Assembly: GCA_913061265.1 (NCBI GenBank)
Contig: CAJXVS010000006.1
Coordinates: 248,001-312,000 of the forward strand
Length of the DNA: 64,000 bases
Origin: an uncultured Halobacteriovorax sp.
Lineage (GTDB): Bacteria > Bdellovibrionota > Bacteriovoracia > Bacteriovoracales > Bacteriovoracaceae
Reading direction: 5' to 3'
Every line of letters starts with the position of its first letter. Positions within the stretch are counted from its first letter, which is position 1. Positions 39,640 through 49,028 of this stretch are shown one piece after another. Position numbers and translations under genes: made by a program. The notes below the pieces were generated by a model. It searched no databases. It saw nothing but the letters and a program-made list of their open reading frames with translations, and was not told where the DNA came from.

Positions 39640-40785
39640 ATGACAGGGAGTTACGCCATTAAAACATCAAAAATCTTGATACTTCTTAGTATCGTCTTTT
39701 GCACTTCTGTAGCAAATGCCGGTCCTCGAGAACAGGCCTATAGGCTTCACAACCGCCTTACAGGGGTGCCACCTCAAGCAACAGTTCTTAATCAAATGGA
39801 AACTTTGATTAGCGCTGGTCAAACCGAGCAAGCGGCTCGCGTAGCAATGGCCAATCCGTATTTTTATAATCTCGTTCTGAAGAACTGGGTTAAAAAGTGG
39901 ACCAATGTCGATGATTCAGAAAGAGTGACTCTGAATGATTATGTGGCAACAGTCATCGGAATGATCAGAGATGATGTTCCTTTTGATCAAGTTCTTTATG
40001 GAGATATTCTCTATACTTCAACTAACCCTACTCTTCCACCTTACGCTAACGATAATAATGATCACTTTATGCAAGCGGAATCAGATCGAATTGATCTCTC
40101 AGCTAGTTTAGTTCAAAGAACTCAAAGTACAGTGACTGGAATTGGCGATACGGCTGGAGTCCTTACGACAAGAGCAGCTGGTGAAGCGTTCTTATCTGCT
40201 GGAACAAATAGAAGAATGAATCGATTCGCTTTTATGAACTTTCTTTGCCGTGATTACGAAGCCCTTCATGACATCACAAGACCCGATCTTTGGGTAAGAA
40301 GAGATGTTGATCGTGCACCAGGCGGAGATAGTAGAACTTTTAAGAATAAATGTGTTGGTTGTCACGCTGGTCAAGATGCCATCGCGGGAGCTTGGGCCTA
40401 CTTTGATTTTGTAGACGGAGAGATTGTCTACACTCCAGGAACGGTCGCTAATAAAGTAAATCAACTTAACCTTTATAGTGATGGTCATATTGTAACGAGT
40501 GATTACTTCGTTAATATGTGGGCCGTTGGACAGAATGCTTCTCTTGGTTGGAGAGGTGCTCAAGAAGGTTATGGTGCTAAAGGTGTCGGTAGAATGATCG
40601 CCTCCACAAGAGCCTTCTCAGATTGCATGGCCAATCGAGTTTTCAAATTGGTTTGTTTAAAAGAGCCGAAGCAGCAAACTCATATAGATGCCGTCAACGC
40701 TCTTGCCACTCAATTTGAAAGTAATAGTAGTTATAATATGAAGTCACTGATTGCAAAAACATCAGTGCTTTGTTTGGGAGAATAG
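39640..40785 (+). CDS. Exported single-haem (CxxCH) protein, PSCyt/DUF1549-like
   Basis: The N-terminal signal peptide ends near SVANAG. The mature 355-residue protein opens with AYRLHNRLTGVPPQA, similar to the R-L-T-G-x-P-P opening of DUF1549-type proteins of planctomycetes. It has NYVATVIGMIRDDVPFD-like helices (DYVATVIGMIRDDVPFDQVL), TNRRMNRFAFMNFLCRDYE, and one c-type haem site CVGCH (Cys238, Cys241, His242). It should be a periplasmic cytochrome-like protein, and its catalytic role is unknown. A lipoprotein gene follows after 3 bases. AGGAA touches the ATG, so the start is a little uncertain. Confidence 0.8.
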   Translation: MTGSYAIKTSKILILLSIVFCTSVANAGPREQAYRLHNRLTGVPPQATVLNQMETLISAGQTEQAARVAMANPYFYNLVLKNWVKKWTNVDDSERVTLNDYVATVIGMIRDDVPFDQVLYGDILYTSTNPTLPPYANDNNDHFMQAESDRIDLSASLVQRTQSTVTGIGDTAGVLTTRAAGEAFLSAGTNRRMNRFAFMNFLCRDYEALHDITRPDLWVRRDVDRAPGGDSRTFKNKCVGCHAGQDAIAGAWAYFDFVDGEIVYTPGTVANKVNQLNLYSDGHIVTSDYFVNMWAVGQNASLGWRGAQEGYGAKGVGRMIASTRAFSDCMANRVFKLVCLKEPKQQTHIDAVNALATQFESNSSYNMKSLIAKTSVLCLGE

Positions 40786-40788
40786 AAG

Positions 40789-41493
40789 ATGAATAGTAAA
40801 ATTAGGTTAGGCGCCTCGATTGGAAGCCTTCTTGTTCTGCTCCTGAGTTTTAACCACTGCGTTCTTCAACCGAAAGCAAGTAAAACGCCAGCAGATGGAT
40901 CAACGACAAATCAACAGCAATCAAATAATAGTGGTGATACAGGTAGTGGTAATACTGATCCAGTGGATCCGGTTGACCCACCAAATATTGTTCTTGAAGA
41001 AGTTGACGTCGGAGTGAAGAACTTCGAGCAAGTTTTAGAGACAATGTCTGTTTTAACTGGAGTTGACGCTAATACAAATGCCATCAACAACACTTATGAA
41101 GACCTTAAGACTCAACTTCCTACTAATAATGATATCAAAACTTTTCTTCCTGCTCATCAGGTAGCTGTAACAAAGCTAGCGGCCGAGTATTGTGATGAAC
41201 TAGTTGATGATAATAATTTAAGAGGAAGTATCTGGCCGGGATTTAATTTTGGCGGAACACCTACGAACTCACTAAACCCAAATGGCAGAGCCACTATTAT
41301 CAATCAAGCGATTGATAAGTTTTGGGGACTAGGAACAGTAAGTGGGGCAGACAAGAATGCAGCAATTGTAGAACTTCAAATACTGATGGCAGATTTAATC
41401 GTAGGTGAAGCCAATAATTCAGCAACAACAAGGACTGTGGTAAAAGGCGTTTGTATCGCTACCCTGGCAACAGCAAGGGTTACCCTGCTTTAG
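40789..41493 (+). CDS. Small lipoprotein with His-Cys lipobox
   Basis: A hydrophobic signal segment (LGASIGSLLVLLLSF) ends in NHC, so the lipidated Cys is preceded by His where Gly, Ala or Ser is usual. A Ser/Asn/Gln/Asp-rich spacer of about 45 residues (NQQQSNNSGDTGSG, DPVDPVDPPN) precedes a 150-residue helical domain with a single Cys pair (AAEYCDELV, VKGVCIAT). No haem motif. The domain resembles the helical caps that accompany PSCyt-type proteins only in size. It lies between the haem protein and the Tat-exported protein, 3 and 9 bases away, so all are co-transcribed. Confidence 0.78.
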   Translation: MNSKIRLGASIGSLLVLLLSFNHCVLQPKASKTPADGSTTNQQQSNNSGDTGSGNTDPVDPVDPPNIVLEEVDVGVKNFEQVLETMSVLTGVDANTNAINNTYEDLKTQLPTNNDIKTFLPAHQVAVTKLAAEYCDELVDDNNLRGSIWPGFNFGGTPTNSLNPNGRATIINQAIDKFWGLGTVSGADKNAAIVELQILMADLIVGEANNSATTRTVVKGVCIATLATARVTLL

Positions 41494-41502
41494 GAGAAAG
41501 TT

Positions 41503-42963
41503 GTGAAAAAGAACAAGGATAAAAGAATTTTTCTTGAGAATCATCCGATGAAATCGAGGCGAGATTTTTTAGCGCAAGGCTTTACGGCCGGGCTAACTTA
41601 CACTCTTGCCCCTAGTATTTTATCATCGTTGTACTCAAGACAAGCTCTTGCTCAAGCAACCGGATGTACAGTTGTTGATCCTAATATCGGTGGAAAGACT
41701 CCCGTTATTATTTTTGATCTAGCTGGCGGGGCCAATATCGCAGGATCAAGTGTGATTGTTGGAGGAGCTGGTGGACAGGCTGACTTTATTCAAGATTATA
41801 CAACTCTAGGACTACCACCAGATATGCACCCGAGCATGCCTGGACAAACAAATAATGAACTAGGACTTATGTTTCATTCAGACTCTTCTTTTTTAAGAGG
41901 GATTCAAGCTCAAACATCTATGGCCACTCGGGCCAATACTGATGGTGGGATCTTTTGTACTTCTTCTTCTGATGATACTGCCAACAATCCTCATAATCCT
42001 TGCTATTGGTTAAACAAAGCTGGCGCAACTGGTGGACTTACTCCCCTAGCAGGAACAAGAAATACTGACAGTGGTGGACGTTCAACCGTTCCTCCCATGA
42101 GTTTTGATCCAAGCTTACAACCTGTTATTCTCAACAGACCAAGTGATGCTTTAGGACTTGTGAATGTAGGAAAGCTTGGGACTCTCTTTCCTGATGATAA
42201 GGTTCAAAAGATCTTAAAGGCCGTTGAAAGAATGAGTGAAGCAAAGATCATGTCTTTTGCTAATCAAAGTCTTCCTATGCAAATTAAAGAATTAGTTAAA
42301 TGTGGATATGTTGGAACTAACGAACTTATATCTAAGTATACCTCTGATGCCCTAGACCCTTCACTGGATCCTATGGTCATGCAGGCCTTTAATAACCTCA
42401 ATGATGGTGATCAAAGAAAGACTGCCACTATTGCTAAATTAGTTCTCGATGGACATATCGGAGCTGGGACTATTGAAGATGGTGGTTATGATTATCATAA
42501 CGGAACCCGCGCTACTGGTGAAGTTAGAGACTTTGGAGCCGGTGAACTTATTGGACGCGTTTTAGAACTCGCAAGATTAAAGAACACTCCCGTTATGATC
42601 TATGTTTATACAGATGGAAGTGTAACAGCGAGAGCTGAAGTTGATAATAGCAATGATGGTAGAGGAAAGTTTAACTGGACTGGTGATTCTGGTCAGAGAT
42701 CTTCTTCGATGATGCTTGTTTATAACCCAGTGGGACGCGCCACTTTAAGAACTGGTCGTCGTCAGATAGGGCATTTTAAAGAATCTGGATCAGTTGAAAA
42801 TGGCGCTATGGTCACTTCAAACTCTGTGATCAACTTAGCAAAAGCTGTCGTCGGAAACTATATGGCCCTTCATGGTGAAGAAGCTAATATTTCAAATGTG
42901 GTTGGAGATAACCCTTTTGGTTCGAACTTAGATCAGTACTTACTCTTTAATAAGATTGTTTAA
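41503..42963 (+). CDS. Tat-exported DUF1501-like protein
   Basis: GTG start with AGGAG seven bases upstream. The twin-arginine motif is SRRDFLAQG (residues 18-26), followed by a hydrophobic core and cleavage near ALAQAT. The mature 435-residue protein has VIIFDLAGGANIAGS, LMFHSDSSFLRGIQAQ, DGGYDYHNGTRATGEVRD and MIYVYTDGSV. This pattern (Tat signal, early Asp-rich strand, 'GG-YDYH' metal-like site and late Thr-Asp) is that of DUF1501 proteins, relatives of alkaline-phosphatase/sulfatase-fold proteins. Tat export implies folding with a metal or cofactor before transport. The reaction is unknown. It is downstream of the haem protein, as in planctomycete pairs. Confidence 0.83.
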   Translation: MKKNKDKRIFLENHPMKSRRDFLAQGFTAGLTYTLAPSILSSLYSRQALAQATGCTVVDPNIGGKTPVIIFDLAGGANIAGSSVIVGGAGGQADFIQDYTTLGLPPDMHPSMPGQTNNELGLMFHSDSSFLRGIQAQTSMATRANTDGGIFCTSSSDDTANNPHNPCYWLNKAGATGGLTPLAGTRNTDSGGRSTVPPMSFDPSLQPVILNRPSDALGLVNVGKLGTLFPDDKVQKILKAVERMSEAKIMSFANQSLPMQIKELVKCGYVGTNELISKYTSDALDPSLDPMVMQAFNNLNDGDQRKTATIAKLVLDGHIGAGTIEDGGYDYHNGTRATGEVRDFGAGELIGRVLELARLKNTPVMIYVYTDGSVTARAEVDNSNDGRGKFNWTGDSGQRSSSMMLVYNPVGRATLRTGRRQIGHFKESGSVENGAMVTSNSVINLAKAVVGNYMALHGEEANISNVVGDNPFGSNLDQYLLFNKIV

Positions 42964-42976
42964 AGAAGGATAAAAG

Positions 42977-44323
42977 ATGACGAAGCTTGTGGCTTTTATA
43001 AAAAGCAGAAAGTTTATGGTTATAGTTTGCTTAGGATTTCTCCTAGGCGGTTATACCCATTGCGTGAATCCTGTTGCTACGCCAAAGAAAAAAGAATTGG
43101 CCATGACAGATAATTCTCAAAGTAATTCTAATTCTTCAAATAATTCAGGAAGCGGAAGTGGTGCTGATTCAGTTGCGATCTTCGCAGCGACTCTCCACCC
43201 TATCACTCAAATGAGATGTATTCCTTGCCACAATTCTTTTCAACAACCTCTTCACGCAGTTACTGATCCAAATCAGGCCCATGAAGCTATCATGGGAAGC
43301 TTCAAGGTAAACTTTGATAATGTCTCTTCTTCAAGAATGGTCGCGAAACTTAGAGATGAAAATCATAATTGCTGGACGGGAGATTGTAATGCCGATTCTG
43401 TTGAAATAGAAAACGCTATCAATGACTGGAAGAGCCAGATGGAGCAGCAAGGCGGAGGTGGTAATAATAACACCAACTCAAACACTACCTCTGAATCAAA
43501 TTACCTGGCCCTAGAGCTAGACCCAAACAATGCAATGGATAATGGAACCATCGGCTTTATGACTGAAGGGGCAACTCTCGTAGCGCCTATGGTTCAAGGT
43601 GATGATAATGGAACCACTTATATAGGCGTCCCAAATGGAAACGGCGGACTCCTTCAAAATAATAATAACGCCGCAGGAATTGGTTACTTACAATTTAACC
43701 TCTCTGCTTCAGATTCTTATAAAATTTATGGTCTAGTAAACTCTCCTACTGGCTCCGATGATTCATTTCATATCAGAGTTAATCAAGGGGCGTACGCAGA
43801 GTGGCACACTGGAGTAACTTCTGGTTATGAGTGGCGTGAAGTGACAGATACTTCTGCTATGAACCCTACTAACTTTTTTATCCCAGCAGGAAATGGTCAC
43901 AATCTTGAAGTTAGGCAACGTGAAGATGGTACTAAGATTGCGAAGGTTGTTATTACAAATGATCCCAATGTGAACTTAGAGGATGTCAGTGGCGCTTTGA
44001 TCGGCACATTGACTTACGACCTAAGCGCTATCCTTGGAGGAGTTGCCGTTCAATTCCAAATCGATTTTCAAGAGTTTGATATGTATAGCTACAAGTTTTC
44101 AAACCCTAGGTTCGTTCTTAATGGGAGAAGTGTTAGAGTTAAGAATATTCAACTCTTAGTAAATAATAGTTTTAACCCGCAACACTCTACCTATACAATT
44201 GTAGATAAGGTTGTCTCTCCTGCAAATCCAAGCGCATCTGATTTTTCTATGATTGTGTTAAAGGATCAAGGTCTACAATTCGATCGTATATCTTTCGCCT
44301 TTGAGACTCTTGAACTGCAATAG
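42977..44323 (+). CDS. Single-haem lipoprotein with C-terminal beta domains
   Basis: The signal peptide ends in YTHC, again a His before the lipidated Cys, followed by VNPVATPKKK. After a Ser/Asn/Gly linker comes a small cytochrome-like domain (about residues 65-155) with one CIPCH site and a second Cys pair (HNCWTGDCN). A Gly/Asn linker leads to a jelly-roll-like domain (about 185-330: YLQFNLSASDSYKIYGLV, DSFHIRVNQGAYAEWHTG), typical of carbohydrate-binding modules. The last 120 residues form another beta region. It could anchor to the outer membrane and recognise glycan. Followed after 2 bases by the signal peptidase gene. Confidence 0.82.
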   Translation: MTKLVAFIKSRKFMVIVCLGFLLGGYTHCVNPVATPKKKELAMTDNSQSNSNSSNNSGSGSGADSVAIFAATLHPITQMRCIPCHNSFQQPLHAVTDPNQAHEAIMGSFKVNFDNVSSSRMVAKLRDENHNCWTGDCNADSVEIENAINDWKSQMEQQGGGGNNNTNSNTTSESNYLALELDPNNAMDNGTIGFMTEGATLVAPMVQGDDNGTTYIGVPNGNGGLLQNNNNAAGIGYLQFNLSASDSYKIYGLVNSPTGSDDSFHIRVNQGAYAEWHTGVTSGYEWREVTDTSAMNPTNFFIPAGNGHNLEVRQREDGTKIAKVVITNDPNVNLEDVSGALIGTLTYDLSAILGGVAVQFQIDFQEFDMYSYKFSNPRFVLNGRSVRVKNIQLLVNNSFNPQHSTYTIVDKVVSPANPSASDFSMIVLKDQGLQFDRISFAFETLELQ

Positions 44324-44325
44324 AT

Positions 44326-45192
44326 ATGAAAAAGGACTTCGTTTATAGCTTATTGATTTTTTCTCTTTGCTTAGCTATAGACCAAGCCACCAAGAGCTGG
44401 GGCTTAACCCTCGAGACCCTTCAATATAATGAAGGAGTCATCTTTGGACTCTATGGCGATTTATCAAAGACCCTTAGGATCATCACCCTTTGCAGTATCT
44501 TTGGTTTCCTCTTCTTTTTATACCTAATCCTCCTCTACTTGCTTCCGGCTCAACTTAAACAATTAAAGTACGGCCTCTCCCTTCTTATGGGAGGAATCTT
44601 TGGAAATGTTCTCGATAGGACTCTCTGGGGAAAGAGCATCGATTTTATCCCCTTTCATCTAGGTGATACTCACTTGGTTTTTAACTTTGCAGATGTCTTT
44701 CAATGGATTGGCGCTGCCATCATCATCTATAAAGTGATTAAAAAAGAAAAAGTGATTTGGTACCCAGACAATCAACGGGGCCGTTACTTAATTAACCCAA
44801 AAGAGCAGATCCTCTTTTCCATTAAATTTAGCTCCATCGCTTTATGTTCCAGCTTACTTCTGGGTATCTTTAGCTTTACCTTTTTTAGAACGACTTTAAC
44901 TGATTGGGGCTTTCGCCAGTACAATCAAGTCTTAGCAAGTTTTGCTATCTCTTATATCTGCTTAACACTGGCCTTTACTCTTTTAGTTTTTATAGCAGGC
45001 CTTATCATTTCTCATAAATCTTCCGGTCCCCTCTACGCTTTTGAGCTCTATGTTGAAGACCTCTTAAAAGGCGAACGGCGAAAACTCGTTCTTCGTGATG
45101 GGGATAATTATCGCCACCTTGAGCAAGTTGCTGATCAGCTAGAACAGCATTTTAAAAAAGAAGATGATGGCGATAAAGGCAAAGCTAGTTAA
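44326..45192 (+). CDS. lspA: Signal peptidase II fused to a membrane-HAMP-like C-terminus
   Basis: Residues 1-140 are a prolipoprotein signal peptidase: AIDQATKSWGL, YNEGVIFGL, GGIFGNVLDR with catalytic Asp97, and FNFADVFQWIG with catalytic Asp123. Instead of ending near 160 residues as LspA does, the protein continues with two more membrane segments (about 165-190 and 205-228) and a HAMP-like segment (230-276: KSSGPLYAFELYVEDLLKGE, then LRDGDNYRHLEQVADQLEQH). HAMP domains relay signals across membranes. The gene directly follows two lipoprotein genes, suggesting a dedicated or regulated processing enzyme. I know no described LspA of this design. Confidence 0.88.
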   Translation: MKKDFVYSLLIFSLCLAIDQATKSWGLTLETLQYNEGVIFGLYGDLSKTLRIITLCSIFGFLFFLYLILLYLLPAQLKQLKYGLSLLMGGIFGNVLDRTLWGKSIDFIPFHLGDTHLVFNFADVFQWIGAAIIIYKVIKKEKVIWYPDNQRGRYLINPKEQILFSIKFSSIALCSSLLLGIFSFTFFRTTLTDWGFRQYNQVLASFAISYICLTLAFTLLVFIAGLIISHKSSGPLYAFELYVEDLLKGERRKLVLRDGDNYRHLEQVADQLEQHFKKEDDGDKGKAS

Positions 45193-45363: not shown

Positions 45364-46527
45364 TTGTTGAAGCTTATTTTGCTTCTCATTCTCCCTAGTG
45401 TGGCTTGGTCCTACCCAAACTTTATTAGCTATCACTATACCTCGTGTATTACTTGCCATTACAACCCAATGGGAAATGGTCCTCTTACAGATTACGGCCG
45501 CGCCGTTGGGGCTACTGTTATAAGTGACCGAGTCTTAAGAGATAAAACAACAAGTGATGATGCCATTGGAAAGACTTCTGGTTTTCTTTTTATGGAAAAT
45601 AAGAATGATTGGTTTAGACCTTCCTTTGATTATAGAGGCCTTACCCTAAAGACAAACTACGACGAGTTAAACGAAGAGAATGATTATATTCATATGATGG
45701 CCGACGCCAATATAGTTTTAAGACTAGGACCTAAGGCAAATAAGGATAAGTTTATCTTTTCTTATACCTTAGGCTACGCCCCTACTCCTCGCGCCCTTAA
45801 AGATAATACAACAATTGAAAAAGAAGATAACTTTAGAAGCCGTGAGCATTATTTTGGGTGGAGAACCAGTCCCAAGTGGGGACTTTACGTAGGTCTTATG
45901 GATAAGGCCTTTGGTATCCGCGTTCCCGATCACAATGCTTTTAGCCGTTCTAATACTGGCCTTTCAATGAACGATCAGTCCCATGGAATGCTGGTTCATT
46001 ATACCACTCCAGCTTTTGAATATGCCATCCATGCCTTTATGGGGAACCTTGCTCAAGAAGCAACAGTGCGCCAAACAGGTGGGTCAGGAACCTTTGAGTG
46101 GACCGCTTCAGAGAAAACGAGAGTGGGAGCATCCCTTCTTTCTTCTCAATCAGATTTCTTAAAGCAATCAAACTACGCTGTTCATATGAGGAGTGCTTTT
46201 GGCAAAGGCTCTAGTGTCATGATCGAAGTAGGCCAACAAAATAAAAAGGCTGTTCTTCGCGGAACCTCTAAAACTAGCCGTTATATCTTTACTCAAAACC
46301 ATGTACGACTAAAGCGTGGCCTTAATATGGTTAACACCCTTGAGTATTTAAAAGCCGATACCTCTAAAAAAGAAGATAAGGTTCTAAGAGTAGGACCAGG
46401 AATTCAGTACTTCCTCAATCAGGGATTAGAGTTTCGCATCGATATCTATAATACAAAAGTATTTTCAGAAACCTCAGTATCAGATGATAGCTGGGATGTT
46501 ACGGGACAATATCATATATGGTTCTGA
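45364..46527 (+). CDS. Haem-motif plus outer-membrane barrel protein
   Basis: Starts at TTG (45364, or the next TTG 45367) behind AAGGA. The signal peptide is very short (LKLILLLILPSVAWS). One CxxCH site comes right after it: SYHYTSCITCHYNPMGNG (His included), in the segment GPLTDYGR. Residues 80-387 are a long run of alternating strands ending IWF, as in an outer-membrane barrel of perhaps 14-18 strands. A single haem at the periplasmic mouth of a barrel could pass electrons through the membrane or act as a plug. The next gene overlaps by 10 bases. No close family name is known to me. Confidence 0.8.
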   Translation: MLKLILLLILPSVAWSYPNFISYHYTSCITCHYNPMGNGPLTDYGRAVGATVISDRVLRDKTTSDDAIGKTSGFLFMENKNDWFRPSFDYRGLTLKTNYDELNEENDYIHMMADANIVLRLGPKANKDKFIFSYTLGYAPTPRALKDNTTIEKEDNFRSREHYFGWRTSPKWGLYVGLMDKAFGIRVPDHNAFSRSNTGLSMNDQSHGMLVHYTTPAFEYAIHAFMGNLAQEATVRQTGGSGTFEWTASEKTRVGASLLSSQSDFLKQSNYAVHMRSAFGKGSSVMIEVGQQNKKAVLRGTSKTSRYIFTQNHVRLKRGLNMVNTLEYLKADTSKKEDKVLRVGPGIQYFLNQGLEFRIDIYNTKVFSETSVSDDSWDVTGQYHIWF

Positions 46528-47627
46528 AGAATATCTCCCCTATTGTTAAATACCTCATCCTCTTCTTTGGATTGCTCTTTATGTTTTCACCTAAAGTGGA
46601 AGCTCAAAATAAAGACCGCGCTATCTTTAATAGTGCCAAGAAAAGCTTTACGGCCGGAAAGTATGAATCCGCTGTCATGACCTTAAGAAGACGTTATGAC
46701 TTTAGAGATAATTCAACTCCTTATGGGGCCCTGACTCTTGCGGCCCTCTCGTATGAGAAGATGGGGAAACTAAAGAATGCCCAGCATATCTATACCTTTC
46801 TTATTAAAAGACGATTTAAGAACGTAAATAATGAAATCATCTCAGCCTACAAAGCCTCTAAAGGCGCCGATGATCTTCCTGAAGCGCCAGAGAAACTGCT
46901 TAGCTATTATTTTAAAAGAGCAGATATTCTTTCAAGAATCTATGTAAGAGATGGACGCTACATGCCTACCAAAAGAAAGAAGCTCTATAGAAATACGGCC
47001 GTAGTCTATGCGGAGATTTTAGAGTCCGCTGACTTTGAACCTGAAGATGATGAAGAAACAGAAGTAGATGATATCATCACCAGGATTGAAAATGCTGAAA
47101 AGAACTGGGAAATGGAATCTTATAAATGGGGCTGGTTCGGCTCTCTTCACTACCTTACTTGGCGTGATAAATTAAAGATCACTACTCCCACTGGAACTTC
47201 CGTTGATATCAGATCAACCGCTGAAGGCTGGTGCGCTGGTGGAGGACTCAAGTACGAGAACTCTTGGTGGCAATGGAATATTAACGCTTGCTACGCAGCT
47301 ATGAACGCCACTGTTGGTAATGACTCACAAGTGGTTAACTACTTTCAAAAAAATGTTCCAGCTAGCGCCTTTTTCATGGGTGTTGGCGGATTTTGGAAAC
47401 CTAGTGCTATGGACGCCGCAATCGGGATCAACCTTCCGTTTATGTTTAGAAGTGGTGATTATACTGAGCCTGCTGGCTATCAATTAGATAATACCTCAAC
47501 ACTTAGTTATGGCTATTTAGTCGAAGCTCAGTGGAACTGGAGCAAGTTCACCTATTCAATGAAGTTTGGAAAAATCAATAAATTCAGCTCTTCAATGCTC
47601 TTTATTGGTGGTCTCTACAACTTTTAA
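46518..47627 (+). CDS. TPR-plus-barrel outer-membrane protein
   Basis: Signal peptide ends near KVEAQN. Residues 40-160 contain three TPR-like helical pairs (SAKKSFTAGKYESAVMTL, YGALTLAALSYEKMGKLKNAQHIY, TAVVYAEILESADFE). The last 170 residues are beta-stranded with many aromatics (GWFGSLHYLTWRDKLKI, FGKINKFSSSMLFIGGLYNF) and finish in Phe, the outer-membrane barrel signature. A periplasmic TPR head on a barrel is seen in several secretion ports, so it may bind the haem-barrel protein with which it overlaps by 10 bases. No family recognised. Confidence 0.78.
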   Translation: MVLKNISPIVKYLILFFGLLFMFSPKVEAQNKDRAIFNSAKKSFTAGKYESAVMTLRRRYDFRDNSTPYGALTLAALSYEKMGKLKNAQHIYTFLIKRRFKNVNNEIISAYKASKGADDLPEAPEKLLSYYFKRADILSRIYVRDGRYMPTKRKKLYRNTAVVYAEILESADFEPEDDEETEVDDIITRIENAEKNWEMESYKWGWFGSLHYLTWRDKLKITTPTGTSVDIRSTAEGWCAGGGLKYENSWWQWNINACYAAMNATVGNDSQVVNYFQKNVPASAFFMGVGGFWKPSAMDAAIGINLPFMFRSGDYTEPAGYQLDNTSTLSYGYLVEAQWNWSKFTYSMKFGKINKFSSSMLFIGGLYNF

Positions 47628-47840: not shown

Positions 47841-48660
47841 AGAGGACTATTTTTAGACCCTTCTCAGGGTCAATTTCTTTAAACTCTTCTGCGCTATAGA
47901 GAACCTTAGACACTTCCCACCCGGGAGCATGCTCTAATAAAAAACCTGAATCTAAAAATGGCGAATTCAAGCAGGCCAAGACCATCCCCTTTTCACTTAA
48001 CCAAGAATCGACTTTCTTTAATAGTTTTGGATAGGCGCTCTCAAGGTGAAAGCTTTTTTGATGAGATGGAGGATCAATGATGATGAGATCCCATGGTCCT
48101 TTTTTTGTAATACCACTTAAGGACTTCATTATATCGTAGCTTAAGAATTGAACATTCTTTTCAAGGCCATTTAGCTGATGATTTTTTTGACCAACCTTTA
48201 AGAAGCTCTTCTTCATATCTATATTAGTTACTTTTAAGGCCCCTGCGTTCATGGCCGCCACTGAAAAAGAACAAGTATAAGAAAAAAGATTTAACACTTT
48301 CTTGTCTTTTGATAACTGGGAGATAAGCTCTCTTCCTGGCTTCATATCCATAAAGAAGCCAATATTTTGATTATCTTTTAAGTTAATTTCATAACGAAGA
48401 GAATTCTCAATAAGATGATGAGTCTCTGGAATACTTCCTCTCAGGGCCCTAAAGGGCTCTCTAGATTTTCTATTTCGATAAAAGATGCCTTCACATTCAG
48501 GAAGCTCGGAGATAATCTTTTCAAGCGCCGCCTCATCAATATCTTCAAATGAATCAATAAGAATATAAGGGGGTATTAAATCAATATTATAATTGAGCCC
48601 TTGACCACGTCCATGAAAGAGCCGCTTTGCTTCTAGCATTAAGGCATCAACTGGACCCAT
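47821..48660 (-). CDS. SAM-dependent methyltransferase, RlmI/RlmK-like
   Basis: A 279-residue class I methyltransferase. The early part (NIGFFMDMKPGRELI) and the SAM motif I (VLNLFSYTCSFSVAAMNAGA) followed by acidic NIDMKKSF and the IIIDPPSHQ catalytic segment match the RlmI/RlmK 23S rRNA cytosine-C5 or guanine-type group. The PUA domain of RlmI is absent. It probably methylates ribosomal RNA, and the exact position cannot be predicted. It is on the opposite strand to the preceding cluster and its start lies inside the stop end of the haem lipoprotein gene (22-base overlap). Confidence 0.87.
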   Translation of the reverse strand: MGPVDALMLEAKRLFHGRGQGLNYNIDLIPPYILIDSFEDIDEAALEKIISELPECEGIFYRNRKSREPFRALRGSIPETHHLIENSLRYEINLKDNQNIGFFMDMKPGRELISQLSKDKKVLNLFSYTCSFSVAAMNAGALKVTNIDMKKSFLKVGQKNHQLNGLEKNVQFLSYDIMKSLSGITKKGPWDLIIIDPPSHQKSFHLESAYPKLLKKVDSWLSEKGMVLACLNSPFLDSGFLLEHAPGWEVSKVLYSAEEFKEIDPEKGLKIVLFTRAES

Positions 48661-49028
48661 TCAATGAGGATCTGATAATTACTATCTGAAATTTGGGGAT
48701 TATCCGCAGGCATATTTCCGCCTTGGTTCTTTAACCTTGTGATCAAAGTAGATCCTGCAGTAGAACCTGCAACAACTCTTCCTGAAGTCTTCCAATTGGC
48801 ATCATTAGTAAAGGCCGCCCATTGATCATGATAACCACTATGGCAGTTTACACATTTATCTTGGATAACAGTTTGAGCCGCGCAGTAACGATCTCCCGCC
48901 GCCGTACCGGCTTCGGTACAGGCAAGAAGAGGGATCAGACCAGTGTCACTCGTGTTTGAGTTAAAGGTCTGTCCACAGCTTGAGAGAAGCATTAGAGAAA
49001 TAAAAAAGAGTTTATTTATATTTAACAT
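48639..49028 (-). CDS. Small single-haem lipoprotein
   Basis: Lipobox LLSSC, then a mature part of about 110 residues containing one CxxCH haem site (KCVNCHSGYHDQW) and a second Cys pair (LACTEAG, RYCAAQT). The C-terminal ILIEWVQ and MPADNP are the pattern of PSCyt1-type haem domains (distal Met in GNMPAD). It is likely a periplasm-facing electron carrier. It overlaps YceI by 17 bases and the methyltransferase gene by 22, so the four genes from the ABC transporter down form one operon. Confidence 0.88.
   Translation of the reverse strand: MLNINKLFFISLMLLSSCGQTFNSNTSDTGLIPLLACTEAGTAAGDRYCAAQTVIQDKCVNCHSGYHDQWAAFTNDANWKTSGRVVAGSTAGSTLITRLKNQGGNMPADNPQISDSNYQILIEWVQLMP

Follow-up and report, generated by a model that had tools for sequence, protein, structure and literature searches.

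The locus and its genes

The window analyzed here, a stretch of 64,000 nucleotides (248001–312000 of its contig) from an uncultured Halobacteriovorax sp., contains a run of five ORFs encoding p1 (39640–40785), p2 (40789–41493), p3 (41503–42963), p4 (42977–44323), and p5, or LspA-ext (44326–45192). All lie on the + strand, as do the features described below, and are separated by gaps of 3, 9, 13, and 2 bases according to the ORF listing. The ORFs, strand, spacing, haem motifs, Tat motif, and LspA match recorded in the initial annotation are all as described there. The conserved core of the cluster consists of four genes, p1-p2-p3-p4, and because more than 100 genomes share its gene order and spacing, the cluster is not a chance association. 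Immediately downstream, p6 (45364–46527), an outer-membrane-barrel-like protein with a single N-terminal haem motif, and its recurrent neighbor p7 (46518–47627), which has TPR-like and barrel-like portions, also form part of the neighborhood.

The first gene, p1, encodes an exported mono-haem protein of 381 aa with a Sec-type leader and a likeness to PSCyt2, PSCyt3, and PSD2 (DUF1549/1588/1585). Its CxxCH motif (40351–40365; residues C238 to H242) is invariant, and covalent attachment of haem is predicted. Against Pfam, p1 of the window matched PSCyt2 with an E value of 0.001 and 19.5 bits, relative to a gathering score of 29.8, and its relatives matched PSCyt3 (4.6e-4) and PSD2 (3.8e-4); no score of p1 or its relatives exceeded the Pfam gathering threshold for any of these three families, the best E values being 3.8e-4 to 1e-3. 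Comparison with a PSCyt3-type profile, built from proteins of the same phylum of which several lie near or above the Pfam cut-off, gave a probability of 97.8% and an E value of 1.2e-12 over 307 columns that span the haem region and beyond, versus E values of at least 0.006 for unrelated control profiles. As judged by these profiles, p1 is homologous to haem proteins of the PSCyt3/DUF1588 type, and the PSCyt kinship first suspected from its opening residues holds. A profile comparison of p1 with DUF1800 produced no match, and nothing significant was returned by PDB sequence searches with profiles of p1, p4, and p6.

The Tat-exported protein p3 (486 aa) carries a twin-arginine motif, SRRDFLA (41554–41574; residues 18–24), in which R19 and R20 are invariant among 22 sequences. 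Its proposed likeness to DUF1501 is a case where profile and fold agree with the proposal but Pfam does not: none of the 22 p3 proteins matched Pfam DUF1501 (PF07394), and an NCBIfam search likewise yielded no DUF1501 match for p3, yet comparison with a profile of 22 DUF1501 proteins gave a probability of 75.5% and an E value of 2.4e-5 (controls, at least 0.25), and a smaller comparison gave 57.7% and 1e-4. In the alignment, D330 and H332 of the GGYDYH motif (42481–42498), both invariant, fall on the GxDxH of DUF1501, and the TDG motif (42610–42618), with D371 and G372 invariant, falls on SEFGRT. The AlphaFold model of p3 (mean pLDDT of 77) has alkaline phosphatases and sulfatases as its top structural matches (2w5x, with an E value of 8e-5 and a probability of 0.94; whole-chain TM is low). 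The Tat leader, GxDxH, and a predicted alkaline-phosphatase-superfamily fold are thus all found in p3; the EFGRT ... DHG signature of DUF1501 is missing, with TDG ... GD in its place. Profile score, motif alignment, and fold match together identify p3 as a remote DUF1501 relative with an apparently rebuilt active-site region and putative catalysis.

The two remaining core proteins are predicted lipoproteins. The leaders of p2 (234 aa) and p4 (448 aa) both end in a conserved Cys, as expected from the initial annotation, but the lipoboxes, FNHC of p2 (40849–40860; residues 21–24, with C24) and YTHC of p4 (43052–43063; residues 26–29, with C29), are non-canonical. Whereas p2 belongs to no Pfam or NCBIfam family in the searches performed, p4 has a single, invariant CxxCH motif (43217–43231; residues C81 to H85), and its model (mean pLDDT of 78) comprises a helical haem domain, a beta-sandwich matching CBM6 and CBM35 (43544–43966; approximately residues 190–330), and a second beta-domain. 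The sandwich matched 2cdp and 2w1w with a probability of 1.00 and a TM to target of 0.65–0.75, with 2cdp at an E value of 1.7e-6 and a TM of 0.75, in agreement with the carbohydrate-binding-like domain originally noted. No Pfam CBM match was found for p4, the CBM6/35 assignment rests on the predicted fold, and carbohydrate binding is putative. A CBM-like fold is equally compatible with glycan chemistry, and to that extent it counts against a redox reading of the locus.

In Gammaproteobacteria, p4 and p2 occur as one lipoprotein of ~830 residues, encoded between p1 and p3, with two CxxCH motifs and a LamG domain (1.7e-20); p2 of the window corresponds to the C-terminal domain of this protein. 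The fusion was found in 55 loci, a count that leaves out apparent fusions of fewer than 650 aa that look like matches to low-complexity linkers, and on the p3 tree the fused forms fall in a few groups, some Bdellovibrionota among them. This fusion argues that p2 and p4 may act as a single subunit.

Distribution and conservation of the module

Genes for p3 are present in 22 of 59 relatives of the window's genome and, by profile search, in 102 of 241 genomes of the phylum. Neighborhoods were examined for approximately 60 p3 loci of Bdellovibrionota and for 80 named loci identified by scanning GTDB genomes, these being the best 80 of 491 p3-encoding stretches and approximately 50 of them gammaproteobacterial; once duplicates were removed, 123 distinct loci were left. 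In 115 of them, p1 is encoded two genes ahead of p3 (-2) in the same orientation, and in 117 a p2 domain takes the place directly before p3 (-1); of the eight loci that lack p1, at least six stop at a contig edge. The distance matrices of p1 and p3 are strongly correlated (r = 0.96, reached in 0 of 999 permutations). The possibility that the genes are never together in related genomes can therefore be set aside. The five-gene cluster as first drawn needs trimming: its neighborhood is conserved, but the constant core is four genes, and an LspA gene is found at +2 in 18 of the 123 loci, mainly in the window's own family. A p6 gene lies near p3 in 30 of the 123. In Gammaproteobacteria, where many of the hosts are marine, the order is p1, fused p4+p2, p3, and the hosts include Marinobacter, Rheinheimera, and thiotrophic symbionts. 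A plasmid search with p3 gave no match.

Several known systems invite comparison. The PSCyt2/PSCyt3-PSD systems of Planctomycetes and Verrucomicrobia likewise pair a PSCyt/PSD-type haem protein with a neighbor from an unknown family, with linked CBM-type domains (PMC5615132), but they differ from the module in that p1 scores under the Pfam gathering thresholds and p3 is unseen by Pfam DUF1501, and in that the module has two extra lipoproteins, other host phyla, flavin and haem outer-membrane partners, and LspA-ext. The DUF1800-DUF1501 operon pair of Proteobacteria is alike in its two-gene pairing with a Tat-exported DUF1501 protein (PMC5122149), and such pairs occur in this phylum too; in contrast to that pair, p1 has a haem motif and no match to the DUF1800 profile. 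True DUF1501 genes of the phylum adjoin genes for DUF1800 proteins (4.6e-76 and 3.2e-57) or for PSCyt3-type dihaem proteins, and the p1-p3 pair therefore represents a single branch of a broader association to which the published DUF1800-DUF1501 operons also belong (PMC5122149).

The module accordingly forms a separate lineage, widespread in Bdellovibrionota and Gammaproteobacteria, and is neither reduced nor specific to predators. This departs from the initial annotation, which had described a reduced planctomycete module outside that phylum. Published DUF1800-DUF1501 pairs are known from other proteobacteria (PMC5122149). A predator-specific function was dropped given this distribution outside predators, and the suggested role in predation or prey-glycan handling is not supported, given that the module is present in thiotrophic symbionts, Marinobacter, and Rheinheimera and is located beside electron-transfer genes. 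The parts of the locus are ordinary; their arrangement is uncommon and well conserved.

Redox context and proposed function

In Gammaproteobacteria, the module is adjoined by genes for DUF3570 (4e-40), DUF4266 (5e-12), thioredoxin (8e-30), and ApbE (1e-85), the components of a flavinylation system whose genes remain separate. The same holds for one family of Bdellovibrionota (f27), in which DUF3570, TlpA, DUF4266, and a small cytochrome are encoded directly before p1-p4, and ApbE just past the module. In the accessible part of the published description of this system, DUF3570 is an experimentally proven substrate of ApbE flavinylation, and p1-p4 are not mentioned there (PMC8238504). The DUF3570 protein of f27 lacks the flavinylation motif [ST]GA[ST], and the Marinobacter copies read SAAS. 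In the window's genome, these genes are unlinked to the module: DUF4266-DUF3570-ApbE-TlpA lie on the same contig, ~155 kb away.

The recurrent barrel-like neighbor p6 is found next to the p3 loci of several families and also next to true DUF1501 loci. With a single CxxCH at its N-terminal end, ahead of a barrel-like chain of ~390 aa, p6 presumably resembles the Cyc2-type fused cytochrome-porins, a likeness of layout and not of homology comparison. Unlike Cyc2 (described in PMC8406198), p6 has no iron-oxidation context. A reading of p6 as a relative of DUF3570 was unsupported (E value of 0.06).

The adjoining DUF3570/DUF4266/thioredoxin/ApbE genes, the HZS-alpha-like dihaem lipoprotein encoded near the gammaproteobacterial module, and the recurrence of p6 favor a redox role for the module over that of a glycan hydrolase. 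It is an evenly balanced proposition that the gene products make up a redox complex of the cell envelope and that one of them is an enzyme dedicated to maturing its lipoproteins. In such a complex, whose formation we infer, the c-type haem protein p1 and the haem lipoprotein p4 would be the electron-carrying subunits, and p2 and p4 would be the two halves of one lipid-anchored subunit that is a single chain in Gammaproteobacteria. Having folded in the cytosol and exited by Tat, p3 would contribute an alkaline-phosphatase-superfamily domain with a metal site, any catalytic role being conjectural, and the CBM-like domain of p4 may anchor the assembly to a surface of glycan or wall. An exchange of electrons, in a direction that can only be surmised, would take place with an outer-membrane carrier, namely the haem-bearing barrel p6 here and the flavin-bearing DUF3570 in other genomes. 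Finally, LspA-ext would cleave off the signal peptides of p2 and p4 at [FY][NTQ][HNQ]C.

Alternatively, the module could process glycans, with p3 as an active sulfatase- or phosphatase-like hydrolase, the CBM of p4 binding polysaccharide, and p1 assisting as a haem oxidase, as has been suggested for the PSCyt proteins of planctomycetes. The CBM6/35-like fold in p4, the LamG domain of the gammaproteobacterial fusion, and the alkaline-phosphatase-superfamily fold of p3 would all suit such a function, as would the verrucomicrobial PSCyt genes that carry CBMs near sulfatases (PMC5615132). This alternative is nevertheless rather unlikely, since the signature residues of DUF1501 (E/F/GR, DHG) are replaced in p3, and the recurrent neighbors of the module are electron-transfer genes and not glycoside hydrolases or transporters.

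The envelope redox complex, in turn, would tie the orphan PSCyt/PSD and DUF1501 domains to an experimentally grounded system of extracytosolic electron transfer, and it would offer a concrete way into the possible function of such modules in hosts that can be cultured, among them Marinobacter, Rheinheimera, and Bdellovibrio.

A second signal peptidase II and an unusual lipobox

The 288-aa LspA-ext matches the signal peptidase II family of Pfam (Peptidase_A8) at 7.2e-18 over residues 14–138, and it keeps the invariant aspartates D97, D106, and D123; the catalytic dyad positions as given for LspA (PMC6952399) are conserved. It differs from an ordinary LspA in being a second copy, in its C-terminal extension of ~150 residues (44743–45189), and in its co-occurrence with a non-canonical lipobox. 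The extension consists of two hydrophobic segments and a conserved tail, and a Pfam search with nine orthologues gave no convincing match for it; a HAMP-like reading, made by eye, gained no support from Pfam. A canonical LspA is encoded elsewhere in the window's genome, and the long form was present in 14 of 14 module-bearing genomes of the family that were tested, versus none of six module-free genomes, so the early suggestion of a signal peptidase peculiar to the module proved sound. In two genomes, LspA-ext is fused to p6, and these real fusions explain an apparent similarity between p6 and LspA.

The lipoboxes of p2 and p4 follow the pattern [FY][NTQ][HNQ]C, and both FNHC and YTHC break the published consensus of [LV][ASTVI][GAS]C (PMC8689077). 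With lipoboxes called by a simple in-house hydrophobicity rule and not a trained predictor, boxes of the unusual type made up 71 of 105 candidates within three genes of p3 and three of 33 elsewhere in the phylum, and in 864 kb of the window's genome, the strict unusual box was confined to p2 and p4 among 57 signal-plus-Cys candidates. The fused gammaproteobacterial protein has a canonical box at the same place in 38 of 38 cases, which identifies the Cys of the unusual box as the lipobox Cys.

Across the phylum, the unusual box occurs in 34 of 37 genomes with LspA-ext and in none of ten without it, a count in which a few genomes were scored by eye from the leader and which excludes one genome (G025) whose LspA-ext is broken and whose box is canonical. 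The corresponding Fisher p of 5.5e-8 overstates independence, since the p3 tree shows only about three joint changes of box and LspA-ext. LspA-ext is accompanied by canonical boxes in three genomes (G213, G035, and G073), one genome (G041) has LspA-ext and no p3 that could be found, and in two genomes an additional copy of the module carries a canonical box (L119 and L122). That the box never occurs without LspA-ext, and LspA-ext sometimes occurs with canonical boxes, is the pattern expected of a substrate requirement. These distributions suggest that LspA-ext may be a dedicated signal peptidase II for p2 and p4, and the pairing of lipobox and LspA-ext is the one unexpected feature of the locus.

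It is conceivable, albeit slightly short of an even call, that Bdellovibrionota possess a private branch of lipoprotein maturation, in which a paralogous, extended signal peptidase II recognizes [FY][NTQ][HNQ]C on the subunits of one conserved haem/flavin envelope complex, a cleavage specificity that we infer. If true, such a branch would represent a dedicated substrate-enzyme pair in a pathway thought to have one general enzyme and one consensus. A true link between lipobox and LspA-ext would mean that signal peptidase II specificity can split between paralogues, and it would have consequences for LspA inhibitors, for how proteins are sorted in predatory bacteria, and for lipoprotein prediction, given that these boxes deviate from the published consensus. 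LspA-ext might instead be a redundant copy or one that confers resistance, e.g., to inhibitors of the globomycin or myxovirescin type, with the odd lipobox reflecting unrelated drift. Inhibitor producers with duplicate lspA genes are indeed known (PMC8689077), but a copy of this kind is improbable for an enzyme that tracks the odd lipobox as described above and is fused to p6 in two genomes.

Neighboring TPR and ExbBD genes

Further genes flanking the gammaproteobacterial module encode an HZS-alpha-like dihaem lipoprotein, two OMP-like proteins, TPR proteins, ExbB/ExbD/ExbD, and a TonB- or AgmX-like protein. Going by gene content, we take the TPR-ExbBD genes to be an Agl/Glt core. Such a core has been described (PMC3169522), and the module could then be its accessory, i.e., a lipoprotein complex that binds surface glycans and is moved, or else supported, by an energized ExbBD-type machine. 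This alternative is improbable: the TPR protein equated with the core does lie on the same contig within ~16 kb in 18 of 20 module-bearing gammaproteobacterial genomes, but an ExbB-like gene is nearby in just one of 68 split Bdellovibrionota loci (a second match being a gammaproteobacterial locus cut at a contig edge), a single-sequence query with the TPR core protein found no match in the window's genome, and the core assignment is one of gene content. The large TPR protein is itself present in all 20 of the module-bearing gammaproteobacterial genomes tested, and it is placed in two arrangements, both contiguous.

Further loci related to the module

Besides p3 of the module, the window's genome possesses a second DUF1501 gene, a true one with a score of 28 bits, above the Pfam cut-off. 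It lies within G000:C3:119646-122903 on a separate contig (loci L001 and L047), and downstream of it are encoded a 177-aa protein and then a dihaem lipoprotein with a faint match to PSCyt3. This locus is a mini-system paralogous to the module. The same genome also carries a compact cluster of DUF4266-like, DUF3570, ApbE and TlpA-like genes (G000:C6:131.9-134.6 kb; L271:5877-8623), located ~155 kb from the module, with a TGAS motif in its DUF3570 protein. A gammaproteobacterial super-locus of ~16 genes (L247-L264) comprises PSCyt/DUF1501-like, HZS-alpha-like, DUF3570/ApbE and ExbBD/TPR genes. The p3 of L193, from a MAG labelled Polarisedimenticolaceae, was placed very near Sedimenticola p3 in the tree, and this MAG is probably a mislabelled or contaminated bin.

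LspA-ext and neighbouring lipoproteins

LspA-ext, the second signal peptidase II with a C-terminal extension, is joined to the single-haem protein p6 in a single open reading frame at two loci (L117:9463-11418, 652 aa; L168:3073-5052, 659 aa), and a segment resembling a signal peptide lies where the two parts meet. LspA-ext may also have substrates other than those of the module, since G041, a related 2.7-Mb genome of family f6, retains it at full length and p3 was not found there. Finally, a small cytochrome-like lipoprotein with a canonical lipobox is encoded on the minus strand at window positions 48639-49028 (Cytochrome_CBB3, 4.4e-6), and its homologue is found again near p6/p7 in several relatives.
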